Assembly: GCA_035714365.1 (NCBI GenBank)
Contig: DASTMB010000035.1
Coordinates: 1 to 44,919 of the forward strand
From: Mycobacteriales bacterium
GTDB taxonomy: Bacteria > Actinomycetota > Actinomycetes > BP-191
Length of the DNA stretch: 44,919 bases
Direction of reading: 5' to 3'
Shown here: positions 158 through 36,087 of the stretch, in pieces
Layout of the letters: every line of letters starts with the position of its first letter
Position numbering within the stretch: the stretch's first letter is position 1
The notes under the pieces: model-generated
What the model was told of the DNA's origin: nothing
Databases searched by the model: none
What the model saw: only the letters and a program-made list of their open reading frames with translations
Translations under genes and position numbers: made by a program

Positions 158-3640
<3,483 letters not shown>

Positions 3641-4140: not shown

Positions 4141-5027
4141 GCCGGGTCCTCGGCGGCACCGCTCCGGTCGCCGGCGGCCGCGACCTCGCGCTCCCCGGCG
4201 GCGACCTGCGGCTGGCCGCGACCCGCTGGTCCGGCACCGGCACCCCGATCCTGCTGCTGCACGGGCTCGCGTCGCAGCGGCGCTTCTGGAACCTCGTGGC
4301 GACGGAGCTGGCCGGCCGCCCCGTCTGCGCGCTGGACCAGCGCGGCCACGGCGACTCCGACCAGCCGGACGACGGGTACGACCTGGCCACGGTCGCGGCG
4401 GACGCCGCCACCGCGCTGGACGCCCTCGGCTGGTCCCGCGCGGTCGTCGTCGGCCACTCGTGGGGCGCCGCCGTCGCGACCACGCTCGCCGCCGAGCACC
4501 CCGAACGCGTCCTCGCCGTCGTCGCGGTCGACGGCGGCCTCGGCTCGCCGCTGGCGGAGGGCGGGACGCGCGAGGAGTGGCGGCAACGCCTGGAGCCGCC
4601 GCGCATCGCCGCACCGCCGGACGAGCTCACGGCCCGGCTCCGGCAGGGCCCGCTCGCGCCGTGGTGGTCGGACGCGGTGGAGCAGGCGGTGCTGCCGATC
4701 TTCGCCGTCGGCGACGACGGGCTGGCCCGCGCGCGGCTCACCCGCGAGCGGCACCTCGCGATCCTCGACGGGCTGCTCGACTACGACGCGCCGGGCACGC
4801 TGGCGCGCGTGGCGGCGCCGTTGTGGGCGCTCGCCTGCCTCGGCGACGACGACTGGTCGGCGGCCAAGCAACGGCAGCTCACCGGGCTGCCGGAACGCGT
4901 CGCGCGAGTGCGCGCGTTCGCCCTCCACGGCGCCGTCCACGACGTACCCTTGCAGTGGCCGGCGCTCGTCGCGGGTGTCGTCAAGGCGGCCGCCGACGAG
5001 GTGGCCGCGACCGAGGGACGGGGATGA
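4110..5027 (+). CDS. alpha/beta hydrolase
   Basis: A hydrolase of the alpha/beta fold; the substrate cannot be told from sequence. Visible motifs are the oxyanion-hole strand LLLHGLASQ, the DQRGHGDSD segment, the nucleophile elbow GHSWG (Ser) and a late histidine in GAVHDVPL. An acid residue is expected between the last two. The start is uncertain. GTG at 4110 overlaps the stress-protein gene by 31 bases, while CTG at 4137 would overlap its stop codon; neither has a good ribosome site. Homology clearly begins by GGRDLALPGGDLRL. The gene ends in an ATGA overlap with the PAC2 gene, implying translational coupling. Confidence 0.85.
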   Translation: MRRAHRGDDLSRVLGGTAPVAGGRDLALPGGDLRLAATRWSGTGTPILLLHGLASQRRFWNLVATELAGRPVCALDQRGHGDSDQPDDGYDLATVAADAATALDALGWSRAVVVGHSWGAAVATTLAAEHPERVLAVVAVDGGLGSPLAEGGTREEWRQRLEPPRIAAPPDELTARLRQGPLAPWWSDAVEQAVLPIFAVGDDGLARARLTRERHLAILDGLLDYDAPGTLARVAAPLWALACLGDDDWSAAKQRQLTGLPERVARVRAFALHGAVHDVPLQWPALVAGVVKAAADEVAATEGRG

Positions 5028-5875
5028 CCGGGATAGAGCCGGAGGACGCGCTGCGCTCCCCCGTCGTCGTCGCGGCGTTCGAGGGGTGGAACGACGCGGG
5101 CGACGCCGCCACGGCGGCCGTGGAGCACCTGGAGCTGGTCTGGGAGGCCCGCCCGCTCGTCACGATCGACCCCGAGGACTACTACGACTTCCAGGTCAAC
5201 CGGCCGACCGTGACGATGATCGACGGCGTCACCCGGCGCATCCAGTGGCCGACCACGCGGCTGTCGATCTGCCGGCTCGACGGCCCGCGCGACGTCATCC
5301 TCATCCGCGGGCTGGAGCCGAACATGCGGTGGAAGGCGTTCTGCGGCGAGATCCTCGACGTGGCGCTCGACCTCGACGCGGAGCTGCTCATCGCGCTCGG
5401 CGCGCTGCTCGCCGACGCCCCGCACACCCGCCCCATCCCGGTCACCGGCACCGCGAGCGACCCGGCGGTCGCGACGCGGCTGGGGCTGGACTCGTCGCGG
5501 TACGAGGGGCCGACCGGCATCGTCGGCGTCCTGCACGACCAGTGCGTGCAGCGCGGCCTGCCGTCGCTGTCGTTCTGGGCGGCGGTCCCCCACTACGTCG
5601 CGCAGCCGCCGTCGCCGAAGGCGACGCTCGCGCTGCTGCGCCGCGTCGAGGACGTGCTCGACATCCAGGTGCCGCTCGCCGACCTCGAGGAGCAGGCGCG
5701 CGGCTGGGAGCGTCAGGTCAACGAGCTCGCGTCGGAGGACACCGAGGTCGCCGAGTACGTGCGTTCGCTCGAGGACCGCGAGGCCGAGACCGACCTGCCG
5801 GAGGCGAGCGGCGAGGCGATCGCGCGGGAGTTCGAACGCTACCTGCGCCGCTCCGGCGACGACCCCGTCGGCTGA
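5024..5875 (+). CDS. PAC2 family protein
   Basis: A 283-residue member of the PAC2 family, named after a proteasome assembly chaperone. The bacterial members are abundant in actinobacteria but have no established role. The N-terminal VVVAAFEGWNDAGDAA is the typical family opening, and the middle contains ILIRGLEPNMRW and the GALLADAPHTRPIPVTG segment. The C-terminal third is rich in acidic residues and predicted helical. ATG at 5024 overlaps the preceding stop codon by four bases. It is followed by a strong hairpin and then by the convergent peptide array. In other actinomycetes this family also sits close to mshC, so its position is ancestral. Confidence 0.92.
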   Translation: MTGIEPEDALRSPVVVAAFEGWNDAGDAATAAVEHLELVWEARPLVTIDPEDYYDFQVNRPTVTMIDGVTRRIQWPTTRLSICRLDGPRDVILIRGLEPNMRWKAFCGEILDVALDLDAELLIALGALLADAPHTRPIPVTGTASDPAVATRLGLDSSRYEGPTGIVGVLHDQCVQRGLPSLSFWAAVPHYVAQPPSPKATLALLRRVEDVLDIQVPLADLEEQARGWERQVNELASEDTEVAEYVRSLEDREAETDLPEASGEAIAREFERYLRRSGDDPVG

Positions 5876-5887
5876 CCCGCGACGACG

Positions 5888-5919
5888 CGGCGGCCCCGCG
5901 CGAGTGCGCGGGGCCGCCG
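5888..5919. terminator. bidirectional terminator between PAC2 and peptide array
   Basis: A perfect 14-bp GC stem (5888-5901 with 5906-5919) closes a GAGT tetraloop. It lies 12 bases after the PAC2 stop and 20 bases beyond the last peptide gene, so it can serve both convergent units. Confidence 0.8.
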
Positions 5920-5939
5920 GTCGTGCCGTGCGTTCGCCG

Positions 5940-6161
5940 TCAGCCGGTGGCGATGCAGGTGTTGATGTTGCCGACCGTGGCGCAGCCCGCCGCCACGGTG
6001 CGGACGCAGTTGCCGATCGGCACGGTCGGGCACGCGTCGACGGACAGGTGCGTGCAGTCGGCGGTGATGCCGCAGCCGACGTGGGTGCCGCCGACGACGG
6101 CGACGAGCTGCCGGCCGGTGAGCTCGGTCAGCGTCTCCCGGCGCAGGGTGAGGCGGCGCAT
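5940..6161 (-). CDS. RiPP precursor peptide 5 (lanthipeptide-like leader)
   Basis: A 73-residue peptide, last of five tandem paralogues. Leader MRRLTLRRETLTELTG... ends in VVGG near residue 25. The core opens with THVGC and contains CTH, ACPTVPIGNC, and two more cysteines in the tail (six in all). It is probably the ribosomal substrate of a post-translational modification system, by analogy with class I lanthipeptide leaders of the form LxLxKETLxxLxxxEL. ATG at 6161 shares its A with the preceding TGA (TGATG) and has no ribosome site, so translation should be coupled to peptide 4. The C-terminal 13 or so residues are almost identical to those of peptide 4, indicating a recent tandem duplication. 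No function is proven. Confidence 0.8.
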   Translation of the reverse strand: MRRLTLRRETLTELTGRQLVAVVGGTHVGCGITADCTHLSVDACPTVPIGNCVRTVAAGCATVGNINTCIATG

Positions 6162-6397
6162 CACGCGGTCGCGATACAGGTGTTGATGTCGCCGATCGTG
6201 GCGCAGTTCGGGCTGATGCTGTTCACGACGACGGCGCACTGGGTCACCGGGACGGTCGGGCAACGGTCGAAGCTGAGGCCGTGGGTACAGCCGTCGGTCG
6301 CGGCGCAGCCGACGTGCGTGCCGCCGGCGACGGAGGCGAGCTCGGGGCTGGTCAGCTCGGCGAGGGTCTCGCGCTTGAGGTGCAGGGTGCGCTTCAT
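6161..6397 (-). CDS. RiPP precursor peptide 4 (lanthipeptide-like leader)
   Basis: A 78-residue peptide, the longest of the array. Leader MKRTLHLKRETLAELTS... ends in VAGG (residues 23-26). The core has THVGC, TDGCTHG, RCPTVPVTQC and a tail with CATIGDINTC, six cysteines in total. Ser and Thr are plentiful, so thioether or dehydrated residues are possible, but this is inference from the leader class. ATG at 6397 follows a GGAG ribosome site in a 24-base gap after peptide 3. The leader differs from that of peptide 3 at two positions, while the tail is shared with peptide 5, so exchange or stepwise duplication has shaped the array. Confidence 0.82.
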   Translation of the reverse strand: MKRTLHLKRETLAELTSPELASVAGGTHVGCAATDGCTHGLSFDRCPTVPVTQCAVVVNSISPNCATIGDINTCIATA

Positions 6398-6421
6398 GCT
6401 GGGGTCTCCGGGAGGTAGGGG

Positions 6422-6640
6422 TCAGTTGGTCTGGACGCAGAGGACGCCGGTGTAGCAGCCGCCGAGGGTCAGGCAGGGGTTGACCGGCACGGTCGGGCAG
6501 CCGACGTCGACGCTGCCGCAGCCGTGGGTACAGCCGTCGGTCACCGCGCAGCCGACGTGCGTGCCGCCGGCAACGGAGGCGAGCTCCCGGCCGGTCAGCT
6601 CGGCGAGGGTCTCGCGCTTGAGGTGCAGGGTCCGCTTCAT
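6422..6640 (-). CDS. RiPP precursor peptide 3 (lanthipeptide-like leader)
   Basis: A 72-residue peptide with leader MKRTLHLKRETLAELTG... and VAGG at 23-26. The core is the most cysteine-rich (seven): THVGC, TDGCTHGC, VGCPTVPVNPC and a tail GGCYTGVLC. The CPTVP motif and the Cys-Thr-His pair are shared with its neighbours. ATG at 6640 follows a strong AAGGAG ribosome site six or seven bases upstream, in a 33-base gap after peptide 2. The odd total of cysteines argues that not all are simply paired as disulfides. It could also be a cysteine-rich secreted peptide, but there is no signal sequence and the leader is polar. Confidence 0.82.
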   Translation of the reverse strand: MKRTLHLKRETLAELTGRELASVAGGTHVGCAVTDGCTHGCGSVDVGCPTVPVNPCLTLGGCYTGVLCVQTN

Positions 6641-6673
6641 GCTGGGCTCCTTACGGGGTAGGGGGCGGGGCGG

Positions 6674-6871
6674 TCAGCCCGCCGGGCACGGGTAGACCGC
6701 GCGCGACAGGCAGTAGTTGAGCGGGGTGGTCGGGCAGGCGTCGAAGCTGGCGCCGTGGGTGCAGGTGTCGGTGGCGGCGCAGTCGACGTGGGTGCCGCCG
6801 ACGACCGAGACGAGCTCGGGCGCCGTGAGCGCGGTGAGGGTCTCGCGGCGCAGGCGCAGGGTTCGCTTCAT
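6674..6871 (-). CDS. RiPP precursor peptide 2 (lanthipeptide-like leader)
   Basis: A 65-residue peptide with leader MKRTLRLRRETLTALTA... ending VVGG. The core starts THVDC and includes TCTHG, ACPTTPLNYC and a YPC near the end, five cysteines in all. CPTTPL replaces the CPTVP(V/I) of the others. ATG at 6871 follows a GAGGAG ribosome site that lies in the 8-base gap after the stop of peptide 1, so the two are on one message. Leader conservation with a diversified core is the pattern expected when one enzyme set processes several substrates. Confidence 0.82.
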   Translation of the reverse strand: MKRTLRLRRETLTALTAPELVSVVGGTHVDCAATDTCTHGASFDACPTTPLNYCLSRAVYPCPAG

Positions 6872-6879
6872 GGCGCTCC

Positions 6880-7065
6880 TCAGAAGGTGACGGTGCAGGG
6901 GAACACCGTGGTGCAGGCGTTCACGCTGGCGCAGTTGAAGACGGGCACCGTCGGGCAGGAGCGGTCCAGGCTCGGGCCGCTGAGCAAAGCGCCGGCGACC
7001 GACTCCAGCTCCGGTCCGGTGAGCTCGGCGAGCGTCTCGCGCTTCAGGCTGAGCGTGCGCTTCAT
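6880..7065 (-). CDS. RiPP precursor peptide 1 (divergent core)
   Basis: A 61-residue peptide, first in the transcriptional order. The leader MKRTLSLKRETLAELTG... is fully typical, but the double glycine is Gly-Ala (VAGA) and the THVGC opening is absent: the core begins ALLSGPSLDRSC. It keeps CPTVPVFNC and ends in a threonine-rich tail, with four cysteines. ATG at 7065 follows a clear GGAAGGA ribosome site. As the promoter-proximal and most divergent member it may give a different product, or be processed at a different site. Confidence 0.8.
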   Translation of the reverse strand: MKRTLSLKRETLAELTGPELESVAGALLSGPSLDRSCPTVPVFNCASVNACTTVFPCTVTF

Positions 7066-7140
7066 CGCGGGGTCCTTCCAGGGCAGGCGCGGGCGGCGCC
7101 GGGGCGGGGACTGGCTGGGTGGGAGCGGGCGGGTGAGGTC

Positions 7141-7165
7141 ACGCCCGGAGGGGCTCCTTCGGCGT
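7141..7165 (-). terminator. hairpin after the mshC operon
   Basis: ACGCC (7141-7145) pairs with GGCGT (7161-7165), and inside it GGAG (7147-7150) pairs with CTCC (7154-7157). It lies 24 bases past the stop of the small membrane protein and before the peptide array. It would separate the two minus-strand units. The array promoter must then lie in about 7066-7140, where I see no convincing -10. Confidence 0.4.
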
Positions 7166-7188
7166 AGGGGACCGAACGAGCCGGAATG

Positions 7189-7482
7189 CTACGCGCGACG
7201 CTGGGTCAACGGGTAGCCGAGCGCGACCGCCACGCCGGCGGCGACCGGCACCGCCCACGCCAGCGGGGTCCGCTCCCCCGCCGTGACGTAGACCAGCGCC
7301 CACGCCGCCTCGGCCGCCGTGAGGACCGCCAGCGCGTCGAACGCCGCCCGCGCCGGCGGCCGCGCGGACCGTCCGGCCCACCACAGCAACGGCAGCGTCA
7401 CGGGCGCCGCGAGGACCGCGCCGCCCATCGACAGCAGCAGCACGAACGCCACCAGCCCGAGCAGGACGCGCAACGCCCTCAC
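7189..7482 (-). CDS. small two- or three-helix membrane protein
   Basis: A 97-residue hydrophobic protein of unknown role. It has an N-terminal helix (LLGLVAFVLLLSMGGAVLAA), a short polar loop, and one or two further helices around DALAVLTAAEAAWALVYV and AVPVAAGVAVALGYPL. GTG at 7482 forms a GTGA overlap with the mshC stop codon, the same kind of coupling seen elsewhere in this block, which is why this start is preferred. I do not recognise a family. Its link to mycothiol synthesis is only positional. Confidence 0.7.
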   Translation of the reverse strand: MRALRVLLGLVAFVLLLSMGGAVLAAPVTLPLLWWAGRSARPPARAAFDALAVLTAAEAAWALVYVTAGERTPLAWAVPVAAGVAVALGYPLTQRRA

Positions 7483-8702
7483 AGCCGCACCCCCAGCAGC
7501 CCGCCGGCGACCGCGCGGACCGCGGCCGGCGCCTCCGCGTCGGTGCCGCCGGTCCGCAGCGCCGCGTCGGCCCAGCGGTCGACCGCTGCCACGGCGGCGG
7601 GCGCGTCCAGGTCGTCGGCGAGGTGGCGGCGGACGGCCTCGGCGACCGGGCGCGCGTCCGGCCCGGCGTCGCGCGCCACGGCCTCCCGCCACCGCGCCAG
7701 CCGCGCGTCGGCGGTGACGATGTCGTCGTGCGTCCACTCCCACGGCGTGCGGTAGTGGTGGGCGAGCAGCGCGAGGCGGATCGCGGCGCCGTCGTGGTCG
7801 AGGCGGAGGTGGCGGACGAAGACGAGGTTGCCCTTCGACTTCGACATCTTCTCGCCGTGCAGGCCGACCATCGCGGTGTGCGTCCAGTGCCGGACGAACG
7901 GCCAGATGCCGAGCGCCGCGGTCGCCTCCGCGGAGGACATCTCGTGGTGCGGGAACACCAGGTCGGTGCCGCCGCCGTGCAGGTCCATCGTCTCGCCGAG
8001 CGTGGCCCGCGCGATCGCCGAGCACTCGACGTGCCAGCCGGGCCGGCCGCGCCCCCACGGCGCGTGCCACGACGGCTCGCCGGGCCGCTCGCGCAGCCAG
8101 AGCACCGGGTCGAGCGGGTCCTTCTTGCCGGGGCGGTGCGGGTCGCCGCCGCGCTCCGCGGACAGCGCGACCATCTCGTCGTACGACAGGTTGCCGACGG
8201 TGCCGAACCGCGGCGCCGACGACACCGCGAAGTACGTGTCGCCGTCGAGGTCGTACGTCGCGCCGTTGGCGCGCAGCAGCCCGATCATCTCCACGATCGT
8301 CGGCATCGCCTCGACGGCGCCGACGAAGTGCGTCGGCGGCAGCACCTCCAGCGCCGCCATGTCGTGGCGGAACTGCTCGGTCTCCCGGCTGCCCAGCGCG
8401 GCCCAGTCGTCGGCCGTCTCGGCGGCGCGTTCGAACAGCGGCTCGTCCACGTCGGTGACGTTCTGCGTGTAGACGACCTCGTGGCCGGCGTCGGCGAGGA
8501 CGCGGCGGACGAGGTCGTAGGTGAGGTAGGTCATCGCGTGGCCGAGGTGCGCGGCGTCGTACGGCGTGATGCCGCACACGTACATCGTCGCGGCGCGGCC
8601 GGGCGCGAGCGGGCGGACCTCGCCGGTGGCGGTGTCGTGCAGCCGCAGCGGCGGGCCTTCGCCCGGGACGGCGGGGGGCGCGGGAACGTGCCACGACTCC
8701 AT
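7479..8702 (-). CDS. mshC: mycothiol cysteine ligase MshC
   Basis: Joins L-cysteine to glucosaminyl-inositol with ATP, the third dedicated step of mycothiol synthesis in the cytosol. The 407-residue protein is a paralogue of cysteinyl-tRNA synthetase. It has CGITPYDAAHLGHA (zinc Cys43 and the HIGH-like motif at 52-55), GWHVECS and FPHHE for the remaining zinc ligands, and KMSKSKGN near residue 287. It lacks the long anticodon-binding domain of CysS, which together with its length separates MshC from the synthetase. ATG at 8702 is preceded by TAGGCT seven bases away. It has its own promoter signal yet lies only 10 bases after the SCO1664 gene. Confidence 0.95.
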   Translation of the reverse strand: MESWHVPAPPAVPGEGPPLRLHDTATGEVRPLAPGRAATMYVCGITPYDAAHLGHAMTYLTYDLVRRVLADAGHEVVYTQNVTDVDEPLFERAAETADDWAALGSRETEQFRHDMAALEVLPPTHFVGAVEAMPTIVEMIGLLRANGATYDLDGDTYFAVSSAPRFGTVGNLSYDEMVALSAERGGDPHRPGKKDPLDPVLWLRERPGEPSWHAPWGRGRPGWHVECSAIARATLGETMDLHGGGTDLVFPHHEMSSAEATAALGIWPFVRHWTHTAMVGLHGEKMSKSKGNLVFVRHLRLDHDGAAIRLALLAHHYRTPWEWTHDDIVTADARLARWREAVARDAGPDARPVAEAVRRHLADDLDAPAAVAAVDRWADAALRTGGTDAEAPAAVRAVAGGLLGVRL

Positions 8703-34281: not shown

Positions 34282-34965
34282 CGCCTCGCCGAGCGGCTCG
34301 CGCACCACCTCGTCGGCGATCGCGTCGTACGGCGTCGGCTCGGCGTTGGCGATCACCAGCCGCGCCCCGGCGCGCTTCGCGAGGAGCGCCAGCCCGGCCA
34401 CCGGCTGCACCGTGAGCGACGTGCCCGCCGCGAGGAAGACCGCGCACCCCACCGCCGCCCGCCGCGCCCGCTCGACGTTCGCCGGGTCCAGTGACTGCCC
34501 GAACGACACCGTCCCCGACTTCAGCACGCCGCCGCAGGCGAGGCAGGGCGGGTCCGCCTCGCCCGCCTCGACCCGCGCCAGCGTGTCCGCCATCGGCGTC
34601 ACGGCGCCGCAGCCGAGGCACTCGACGCGGTAGAGCGAGCCGTGCATCTCCACGACGACCTCCGGCGAGGAGCCCGCGCGCTGGTGCAGGCCGTCGATGT
34701 TCTGCGTGACGAGCGTGTGCAGCGCGCCGGCGCGTTCCAGGTCCACCAGCGCGCGGTGGGCGGCGTTCGGCTCGGCGGTCCAGGCGGGGTGCTCCAGCCG
34801 GTTCCGCCAGGCGCGGACCCGCAGCGCCGGGTCGGCCACGTACGCGTCGAGCGTGAACATCCGCTGCGCCGCCGGGTCGCGGGTCCAGACGCCGTTCGGC
34901 CCGCGGAAGTCGGGGATGCCGCTGTCGGTCGACACCCCGGCCCCGGTCAGCACGGTCACGCGCAC
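34246..34965 (-). CDS. NAD-dependent protein deacylase, sirtuin
   Basis: A 239-residue SIR2 protein that removes acyl groups from lysine using NAD. Motifs: GAGVSTDSGIPDFRG, VTQNIDGLHQRAG, catalytic EMHGSLY, a zinc ribbon of four cysteines (CLGC and CLAC) and GTSLTVQPVA. It resembles the CobB/class III group. GTG at 34965 gives VTVLTGAGVS; CAGGAT lies six bases upstream. The last 12 codons overlap the end of nhaA on the other strand. It is divergent from the alcohol dehydrogenase gene with 33 bases between. Confidence 0.95.
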   Translation of the reverse strand: MRVTVLTGAGVSTDSGIPDFRGPNGVWTRDPAAQRMFTLDAYVADPALRVRAWRNRLEHPAWTAEPNAAHRALVDLERAGALHTLVTQNIDGLHQRAGSSPEVVVEMHGSLYRVECLGCGAVTPMADTLARVEAGEADPPCLACGGVLKSGTVSFGQSLDPANVERARRAAVGCAVFLAAGTSLTVQPVAGLALLAKRAGARLVIANAEPTPYDAIADEVVREPLGEALPRLVAAYAQQ

Positions 34966-34985
34966 GGCCCCATCCTGCCGCCCGT

Positions 34986-34991
34986 TACGCT
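34986..34991 (+). promoter_or_regulatory. -10 hexamer TACGCT for the alcohol dehydrogenase
   Basis: TACGCT lies seven bases before the ATG at 34999 without a Shine-Dalgarno, fitting a leaderless message. Confidence 0.45.
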
Positions 34992-34998
34992 CCCCCGC

Positions 34999-36087
34999 AT
35001 GACCAGGGCCGCCGTCCTGCGCGCGACCGGCGCGCCCCTCGACGTCACCGACATCGACCTCGCGCCGACCGGCCCGGGCCAGGTGCGGGTGCGGCTGCGC
35101 GCCACCGGCGTCTGCCACTCCGACCTGTCGATCTGCACCGGCGCGCTGCGCCACCCGCTGCCCGCCGTGCCCGGCCACGAGGGCGCCGGCGTCGTCGCCG
35201 AGGTGGGCGAGGGCGTCACGTCCGTCGCCCCCGGCGACCACGTCATCCTCAACTGGACGCCGTCCTGCGGCACCTGCTTCTTCTGCGCCAAGCACGAGCC
35301 GTGGCTCTGCGAGCGCGCCGCCGCCGACGCGCTCGCCGCCCCCTACGCGACCGCCGGCGGCGAGGCGCTCGCGCCGGTGCTCGGCAGCGGGGCGTTCGCC
35401 GAGGAGACGCTGGTGCTCGAACGCGCCGTCGTGCGCATCCCGGACGACGTGCCGTTCGAGGTGGCGGCGCTGGTCGGCTGCGCGGTCACCACCGGCTTCG
35501 GCGCGGCCGTCAACACCGCGAAGGTGCAGCCGGGCGACACCGTCGCCGTCCTCGGCTGCGGCGGCGTCGGGCTGTCGGTGATCCAGGGCGCGCGGCACGC
35601 CGGCGCGGCGCTCGTCGTCGCCGTTGACATGACCGACGACAAGCTCGCGCTCGCCCGCGACCTCGGCGCCACCGACACCGTGAACGGCGGCGACGACGTC
35701 GAGGCGTTCGTCCGCGGGCTGACCGAGGGGCGCGGCGTCGACCACACGTTCGAGGCGATCGGCCGCGGCGCCACCATCCGCACGGCGTACCGGATCGCCC
35801 GTCGCGGCGGCAACGTCGTCGTGGTCGGCGCCGGCCGCCACGACGACAAGGTCGAGCTCTCCGCGCTGGAGCTGTTCTTCCAGGCGCGCAGCATCGTCGG
35901 CTGCGTCTACGGCTCCGCCGACGTCGCCCGCGACTTCCCGCGGATCCTCGCGCTCTACAAGTCAGGCGCGCTCGACCTGGACCGGCTGATCACCGCCCGC
36001 ACCACGCTCGACGGCGTCAACGACGCCCTCGACGCGATGGCGGCCGGCGTCGGCGCGCGCACCGTCGTGACGTTCGGGCAGGACTGA
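34999..36087 (+). CDS. zinc-dependent alcohol dehydrogenase
   Basis: A 362-residue medium-chain dehydrogenase. The catalytic zinc ligands are in GVCHSD, PGHEGAG and GCAVTTG; the structural-zinc lobe CGTCFFCAKHEPWLC has all four cysteines. The NAD fold has VLGCGGVGLSVIQGA and VAVDMTDDKL. It resembles the class III/NAD-dependent alcohol dehydrogenase group of actinobacteria, including mycothiol-linked formaldehyde dehydrogenases, but the closest substrate is not resolved. Start at ATG 34999 matches the family. The downstream small secreted gene begins 57 bases later. Confidence 0.93.
   Translation: MTRAAVLRATGAPLDVTDIDLAPTGPGQVRVRLRATGVCHSDLSICTGALRHPLPAVPGHEGAGVVAEVGEGVTSVAPGDHVILNWTPSCGTCFFCAKHEPWLCERAAADALAAPYATAGGEALAPVLGSGAFAEETLVLERAVVRIPDDVPFEVAALVGCAVTTGFGAAVNTAKVQPGDTVAVLGCGGVGLSVIQGARHAGAALVVAVDMTDDKLALARDLGATDTVNGGDDVEAFVRGLTEGRGVDHTFEAIGRGATIRTAYRIARRGGNVVVVGAGRHDDKVELSALELFFQARSIVGCVYGSADVARDFPRILALYKSGALDLDRLITARTTLDGVNDALDAMAAGVGARTVVTFGQD

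Follow-up and report, generated by a model that had tools for sequence, protein, structure and literature searches.

An array of five small genes at positions 5,940 to 7,065 appears to be one cassette in a library of class I lanthipeptide precursors that is spread over the whole genome, with 54 precursor peptides that would be served by a single set of LanB, LanC and exporter. We assign this reading a probability of about 0.82. The array lies in a 44,919-nucleotide stretch of DNA from a Mycobacteriales bacterium (the window), whose genome is a draft of 98 contigs that is 99% complete. The 54 genes with the same leader in this genome are spread over 12 contigs and 14 loci, counting both sides of the enzyme operon as one locus. 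Fourteen of these genes flank an operon for LanB, and the other 40, including the five in the window, occupy 13 remote loci. The gene calls rest on a profile and a simple caller based on codon usage rather than on annotation.

The precursor array and its surroundings

The five genes all lie on the minus strand where the first-pass annotation had placed them, and encode peptides of 61 to 78 residues. Gene 1 (6880-7065; 61 residues, leader at 6988-7065) has the core LLSGPSLDRSCPTVPVFNCASVNACTTVFPCTVTF with four cysteines, and gene 2 (6674-6871; 65 residues, leader at 6794-6871) has the core THVDCAATDTCTHGASFDACPTTPLNYCLSRAVYPCPAG with five. The cores of gene 3 (6422-6640; 72 residues, leader at 6563-6640), gene 4 (6161-6397; 78 residues, leader at 6320-6397) and gene 5 (5940-6161; 73 residues, leader at 6087-6161) contain seven, six and six cysteines, so the range of four to seven given earlier is correct. 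In each peptide, a leader of 25 to 26 residues that fits M(K)R.L.L(K/R)RETL..LT...L..V.G(G/A) precedes a core of 35 to 52 residues; the common leader claimed for the array is thus present in all five.

The core motifs described previously need one correction. CPT(V/T)P occurs in all five cores, but THV(G/D)C and CTH occur in only four, because gene 1 lacks both and keeps only CPTVP. The combined pattern THxxC...CTH...CPT(V/T)P marks a subfamily, being confined to the window array and its syntenic partner in a second species, and the remark that the core motifs match no recognized class still holds.

The start codon of gene 5 overlaps the stop codon of gene 4 by 1 base, and the other gaps between array genes are 8 to 33 bp. 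Directly downstream on the same strand is a GC-rich hairpin (5882-5924; -47.3 kcal/mol, z -4.81) that has no T-run and is the probable transcription end of the array. Because the genes are at most 33 bases apart, the last two overlap and a strong hairpin follows, the array is most likely one transcription unit. Its downstream flank is a plus-strand gene for a PAC2-family protein (5024-5875). Its upstream flank is a minus-strand gene for an MshC-like protein of the class I Cys-tRNA-synthetase fold (7479-8702; PF01406, E 9e-90), and both flanking genes are conserved in the second species. The interval between mshC and the array holds a minus-strand gene for a small predicted membrane protein (7189-7473), also present at the syntenic site. 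No modifying enzyme is encoded by these neighbors. Lanthipeptide enzymes adjoin 14 of the 54 paralogues rather than the window array; such adjacency is usual for class I systems but not strictly required.

A shared upstream regulatory motif was considered and rejected as not convincing. C-rich words (CCCCTAC) are enriched, but the exact hexamer CCCCTA precedes only 26 of 140 genes. With one mismatch, CCCCTACC is found in 28 of 75 upstream regions of the family versus 26 of 256 other upstream regions. Where CCCCTAC words occur, in a minority of genes, they are often 19 to 28 bases before the start codon, as at 6400-6425 and 6640-6670 of the window.

A genus-specific family with a common leader

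A profile built from the five array genes matches 49 genes in the window's genome and 25 and 55 genes in two congeneric genomes. Within the window's genome, profile E-values of 4e-38 to 2e-22 argue against a chance pattern. In each of 57 further genomes of the class, the same profile picks up one marginal match or none. A leader-only profile built from 44 members separates the family clearly in the window's genome, with members at E of 3e-6 or better and noise at 0.04. Evenly drawn samples of 396 phylum genomes and 394 class genomes contained none outside the genus with more than one marginal match. When start and stop codons were required, the two congeners yielded 59 and 27 family genes; the lower count belongs to an assembly that is more fragmented and 7% contaminated. 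In the window's genome, every one of the 54 frames is intact with start and stop. A Shine-Dalgarno-like motif stands before 100 of the 140 genes of the family, compared with 13% of random positions.

Over the 54 genes, the leader reads L-22 x L-20 x (K/R)-18 x5 L-12 ... (E/D)-8 L-7 xx (V/I)-4 x G-2 (G/A)-1. Glycine or alanine at -1, valine or isoleucine at -4 and leucine at -7 are found in all 54, leucine at -12 in 53, glutamate or aspartate at -8 in 49 and glycine at -2 in 48. The first half is the class I LxLxKx5L motif, and the second half is a double-glycine cleavage site of C39 peptidases, whose positions it fits. A few members have AG, SG or RA instead of GG or GA at this site; thus, not every copy need be functional. 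Leaders share 57% pairwise identity and have two cysteines in 1398 residues, whereas cores share 31% (27% for shuffled cores). Leader similarity is 0.55 between remote and LanB-adjacent genes and 0.58 within either group. Because leaders are about equally alike between and within groups, no leader feature separates remote from LanB-adjacent genes.

The suggestion that these peptides are RiPP precursors, with variable cores behind a leader of the lanthipeptide type, is supported, and is the best reading of the array given its sequence and the position of 14 paralogues beside a complete LanC-LanB-exporter operon. A search of NCBIfam leader models, proposed earlier as a check, gave a partial answer. 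The nearest model is indeed a class I lanthipeptide model, NF038153 (lant_leader_L1a), but the window genes score 11.8 to 17.2 bits, below its curated cut-off of 22. Several paralogues with the same leader in this genome exceed the cut-off, reaching 27.1 bits.

A single enzyme operon

The window's genome encodes one protein with a Lant_dehydr_N domain (LanB) and one LanC-like protein. Both are in an operon on contig C64 of this genome (G000), at about 102-107 kb (L036), in the order LanC (414 residues; 8153-9397 of L036), LanB (1034 residues; 9394-12498 of L036), a 156-residue protein that matches no Pfam family, and an ABC exporter whose first ~130 residues are the C39 peptidase domain. LanB is full-length, with both the glutamylation and the elimination domain (PF04738, E 1e-153; PF14028, E 1e-62), retains the family motifs R...R.TPFG.F, F.RY.DP..H.R.R and S..HM..NR, and aligns with the solved structures of MadB, MibB and NisB. 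LanC (E 8e-39) aligns with NisC and has the WCYG and CHG stretches, which carry zinc ligands in NisC. The exporter aligns nearly full-length with the structure of an ABC-type bacteriocin transporter, PCAT1 (entry 4ry2). Both congeners have the same gene set together with the same precursor family.

Among lanthipeptide enzymes, the search covered LanB and LanC of class I and LanM of class II. LanM (PF13575) had no match in the three genomes, in a search run without a positive control. The second species has three additional LanC-like genes that lack a LanB counterpart, on its first contig (G002:C1) at 35.3 kb and 77.4-79.5 kb (L056, L057, L058), and one of them adjoins a family precursor gene (34823-35032).

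These components suggest how the remote precursors, as substrates of one enzyme set, might be matured. The single LanB/LanC pair would bind the common motif LxLx(K/R)x5L on all 54 precursors, as the identity of the leaders and their co-occurrence with the enzymes suggest. LanB would then dehydrate serines and threonines, and LanC would add cysteines to form thioether rings in very different cores, which is the chemistry expected from the enzyme families. Finally, the C39 domain of the co-operonic exporter would cut after G(G/A) during export; this step is predicted from the leader motif and the exporter's place in the operon.

Core composition, conservation and turnover

The 54 cores are all different, with 20 to 52 residues and a mean of 4.0 cysteines. 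Cysteine makes up 12.5% of core residues and serine plus threonine 21.7%; the corresponding shares in the larger proteins encoded by this genome are 0.96% and 11.2%. Between species, 38 reciprocal best core pairs reach 45% identity; a control with shuffled cores, run for one species pair, gave 0 to 4. Among the better pairs, conservation is 0.87 for cysteine, 0.76 for proline, 0.75 for threonine, 0.73 for serine and 0.47 for other residues, in alignments that scored all residues equally, blind to residue type. The associated p value of about 1e-19 is overstated, because the counts treat pairs as independent although they share ancestry. Preferential conservation of cysteine, threonine and serine is the pattern that would be expected of thioether-forming peptides. 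The cores are poor in lysine and arginine, which argues weakly against their being simple cationic membrane killers.

In the second species, synteny with the block around the window array extends over about 11 kb, with flanks of 77-86% nucleotide identity. At the same place, between the PAC2-family gene and mshC, that species has a seven-gene array. The two arrays are 68-71% identical, and individual genes match several others. Four further remote loci are flanked by homologous DNA in congeners. Homologous flanks around differing array genes suggest that the sites are old and that the cores turn over.

Alternative explanations

If the remote precursors, including those in the window, were unmodified cysteine-rich double-glycine bacteriocins with disulfides, they would share only the C39 exporter with the precursors beside LanB and LanC, and these enzymes would act on adjacent genes only. 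A double-glycine site would suffice to explain C39 processing, the cores have many cysteines, and one window gene has a faint match to Bacteriocin_IIc (PF10439). That match, in a single gene, scores 14.9 bits against a cut-off of 27.1, and assignment of the array to class IIc bacteriocins was rejected. We consider unmodified bacteriocins unlikely, because the LxLx(K/R)x5L half of the leader, which is not expected to be necessary for C39 processing, is equally conserved in remote and LanB-adjacent genes, and because core serines and threonines are preferentially conserved along with cysteines, although disulfides would not need them. The same core conservation across species also bears on a further alternative, in which the majority of the scattered genes are duplicates that are decaying or not expressed, and few are functional. 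The high copy number, the many loci, some atypical cleavage sites and the differing gene content between species are compatible with decay, but the intact frames and the Shine-Dalgarno-like motifs before most genes make it quite improbable.

Modification of the array by a different kind of enzyme, such as radical SAM or YcaO, is very improbable. The model TIGR04149 ("rSAM-modified RiPP") matches at 14 to 19 bits and the same genome has a separate radical-SAM/C39 cluster on contig C75, but the highest TIGR04149 score is 18.8 bits against a cut-off of 25, no radical SAM gene is evident near the window array or at the LanB locus, and the LanB operon is itself flanked by the precursor family. The array was therefore rejected as a TIGR04149-type radical SAM target. 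The putative precursor of the C75 cluster differs (MSTTAYEKISDDELDAIVGG...) and lacks the family leader; its C39 exporter, belonging to a separate cluster with another precursor type, was set aside as a candidate exporter of the family. The C75 cluster (L199; G000:C75:1-9000) is RiPP-like and comprises a C39-ABC exporter (393-2507, minus strand), a radical SAM gene (6058-7212, plus strand), a 37-residue peptide with a GG-type leader and a short core, and further genes without a match.

Comparison with known lanthipeptide systems

The prochlorosins and synechococsins of marine picocyanobacteria are made by the class II enzymes ProcM, with 29 precursors, and SyncM, with 79 to 83 in different strains; their scattered genes combine a conserved leader with a hypervariable core (PMC10783134, PMC12328550). 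The family described here resembles them in having one enzyme set, dozens of scattered precursors and the same pairing of leader and core. It differs from prochlorosins in that LanB and LanC are separate class I proteins, the host is an actinobacterium and the leader is not of the Nif11 type, as no Nif11 match was found in Pfam at E of 1 or less. The system may best be read as a class I counterpart of the prochlorosins.

Among class I systems, an LxLxKx5L leader, a GG site and a C39 protease have been reported for LanAs of Bacteroidota (Walker et al. 2020; PMC7268733). The family shares this leader architecture and C39 processing type, and NF038153 matches both groups. However, the Bacteroidota precursors were described as enzyme-adjacent (PMC7268733), whereas the window array is remote from the enzymes. 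In a class I survey that spanned over a hundred thousand genomes, the largest precursor number named for a cluster is 10; only seven genes on either side of lanC were considered, so that dispersed precursors were not counted (PMC7268733). Like the nisin system, the present one has LanB and LanC proteins homologous to the NisB, MibB and NisC structures. Unlike it, the leader has no FxLD motif, a C39 exporter-peptidase takes the place of NisP/NisT, and there is one set for dozens of precursors.

Blastococcus mobilis (L061) and a Modestobacter metagenome-assembled genome (L062) have LanBs that, at 46-47% identity, are among the nearest outside the genus. Their genomes also encode a C39 protein and a related leader, but one leader-bearing gene was found at each LanB locus. 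The corresponding peptides (L061:8229-8486 and L062:3414-3671) have a highly charged core rich in lysine, aspartate and histidine with almost no cysteine, which would be an odd lanthipeptide substrate.

A search of the open-licence literature turned up no description of a class I precursor library scattered over a genome. As far as we found, such a natural library has been described until now only for another enzyme class in marine cyanobacteria.

A second probable expansion in Kordia

Nearly all of 47 other LanB-bearing genomes have 0 to 8 leaders of the broad type. Counts are far higher, at 31 and 51, in two genomes of Kordia. A Kordia-specific leader model finds from at least 82 to at least 140 matches in each of five Kordia genomes (L121 in G487, L132 in G491, L133, L135 and L124; samples L190-L198 and L203-L222) and 6 to 13 in three related flavobacteria. 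The Kordia genes are dispersed and have the form MKKK...LxLxK...GG with cysteine-rich cores; cysteine follows the leader in 35 of 38 sampled matches and makes up 11% overall. Each of two Kordia genomes tested has one Lant_dehydr_N protein. A previous study described a cluster in K. algicida that has a single LanA determinant (Marsh et al. 2010; PMC3091789). Several LanBs of Bacteroidota (L121, L132, L135, L087, L104) have about 750 residues, consistent with a dehydratase split into two genes.

In a quick LanB tree whose deep branches are not resolved, the three LanBs of the genus group together and those of Kordia fall within Bacteroidota; at that resolution, the two expansions look independent. 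Class I combinatorial libraries, with dozens to more than 100 dispersed precursors per enzyme set, seem likely to have arisen independently of the class II prochlorosins at least twice, in this genus and in Kordia.

Implications

Prochlorosins are the standard natural example of one lanthipeptide enzyme acting on many substrates, and they belong to class II. If the reading proposed here is true, a class I system with 54 to 59 precursors per genome would mean that this strategy evolved more than once. It would also give peptide engineering a LanB/LanC pair that is guided by the leader and tolerates diverse substrates, and genome mining limited to the neighborhood of the enzymes would miss most class I precursors where these are dispersed. 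Some core families have cysteine, serine and threonine conserved between species, and comparing conserved with fast-changing members would make the purpose of the library testable.
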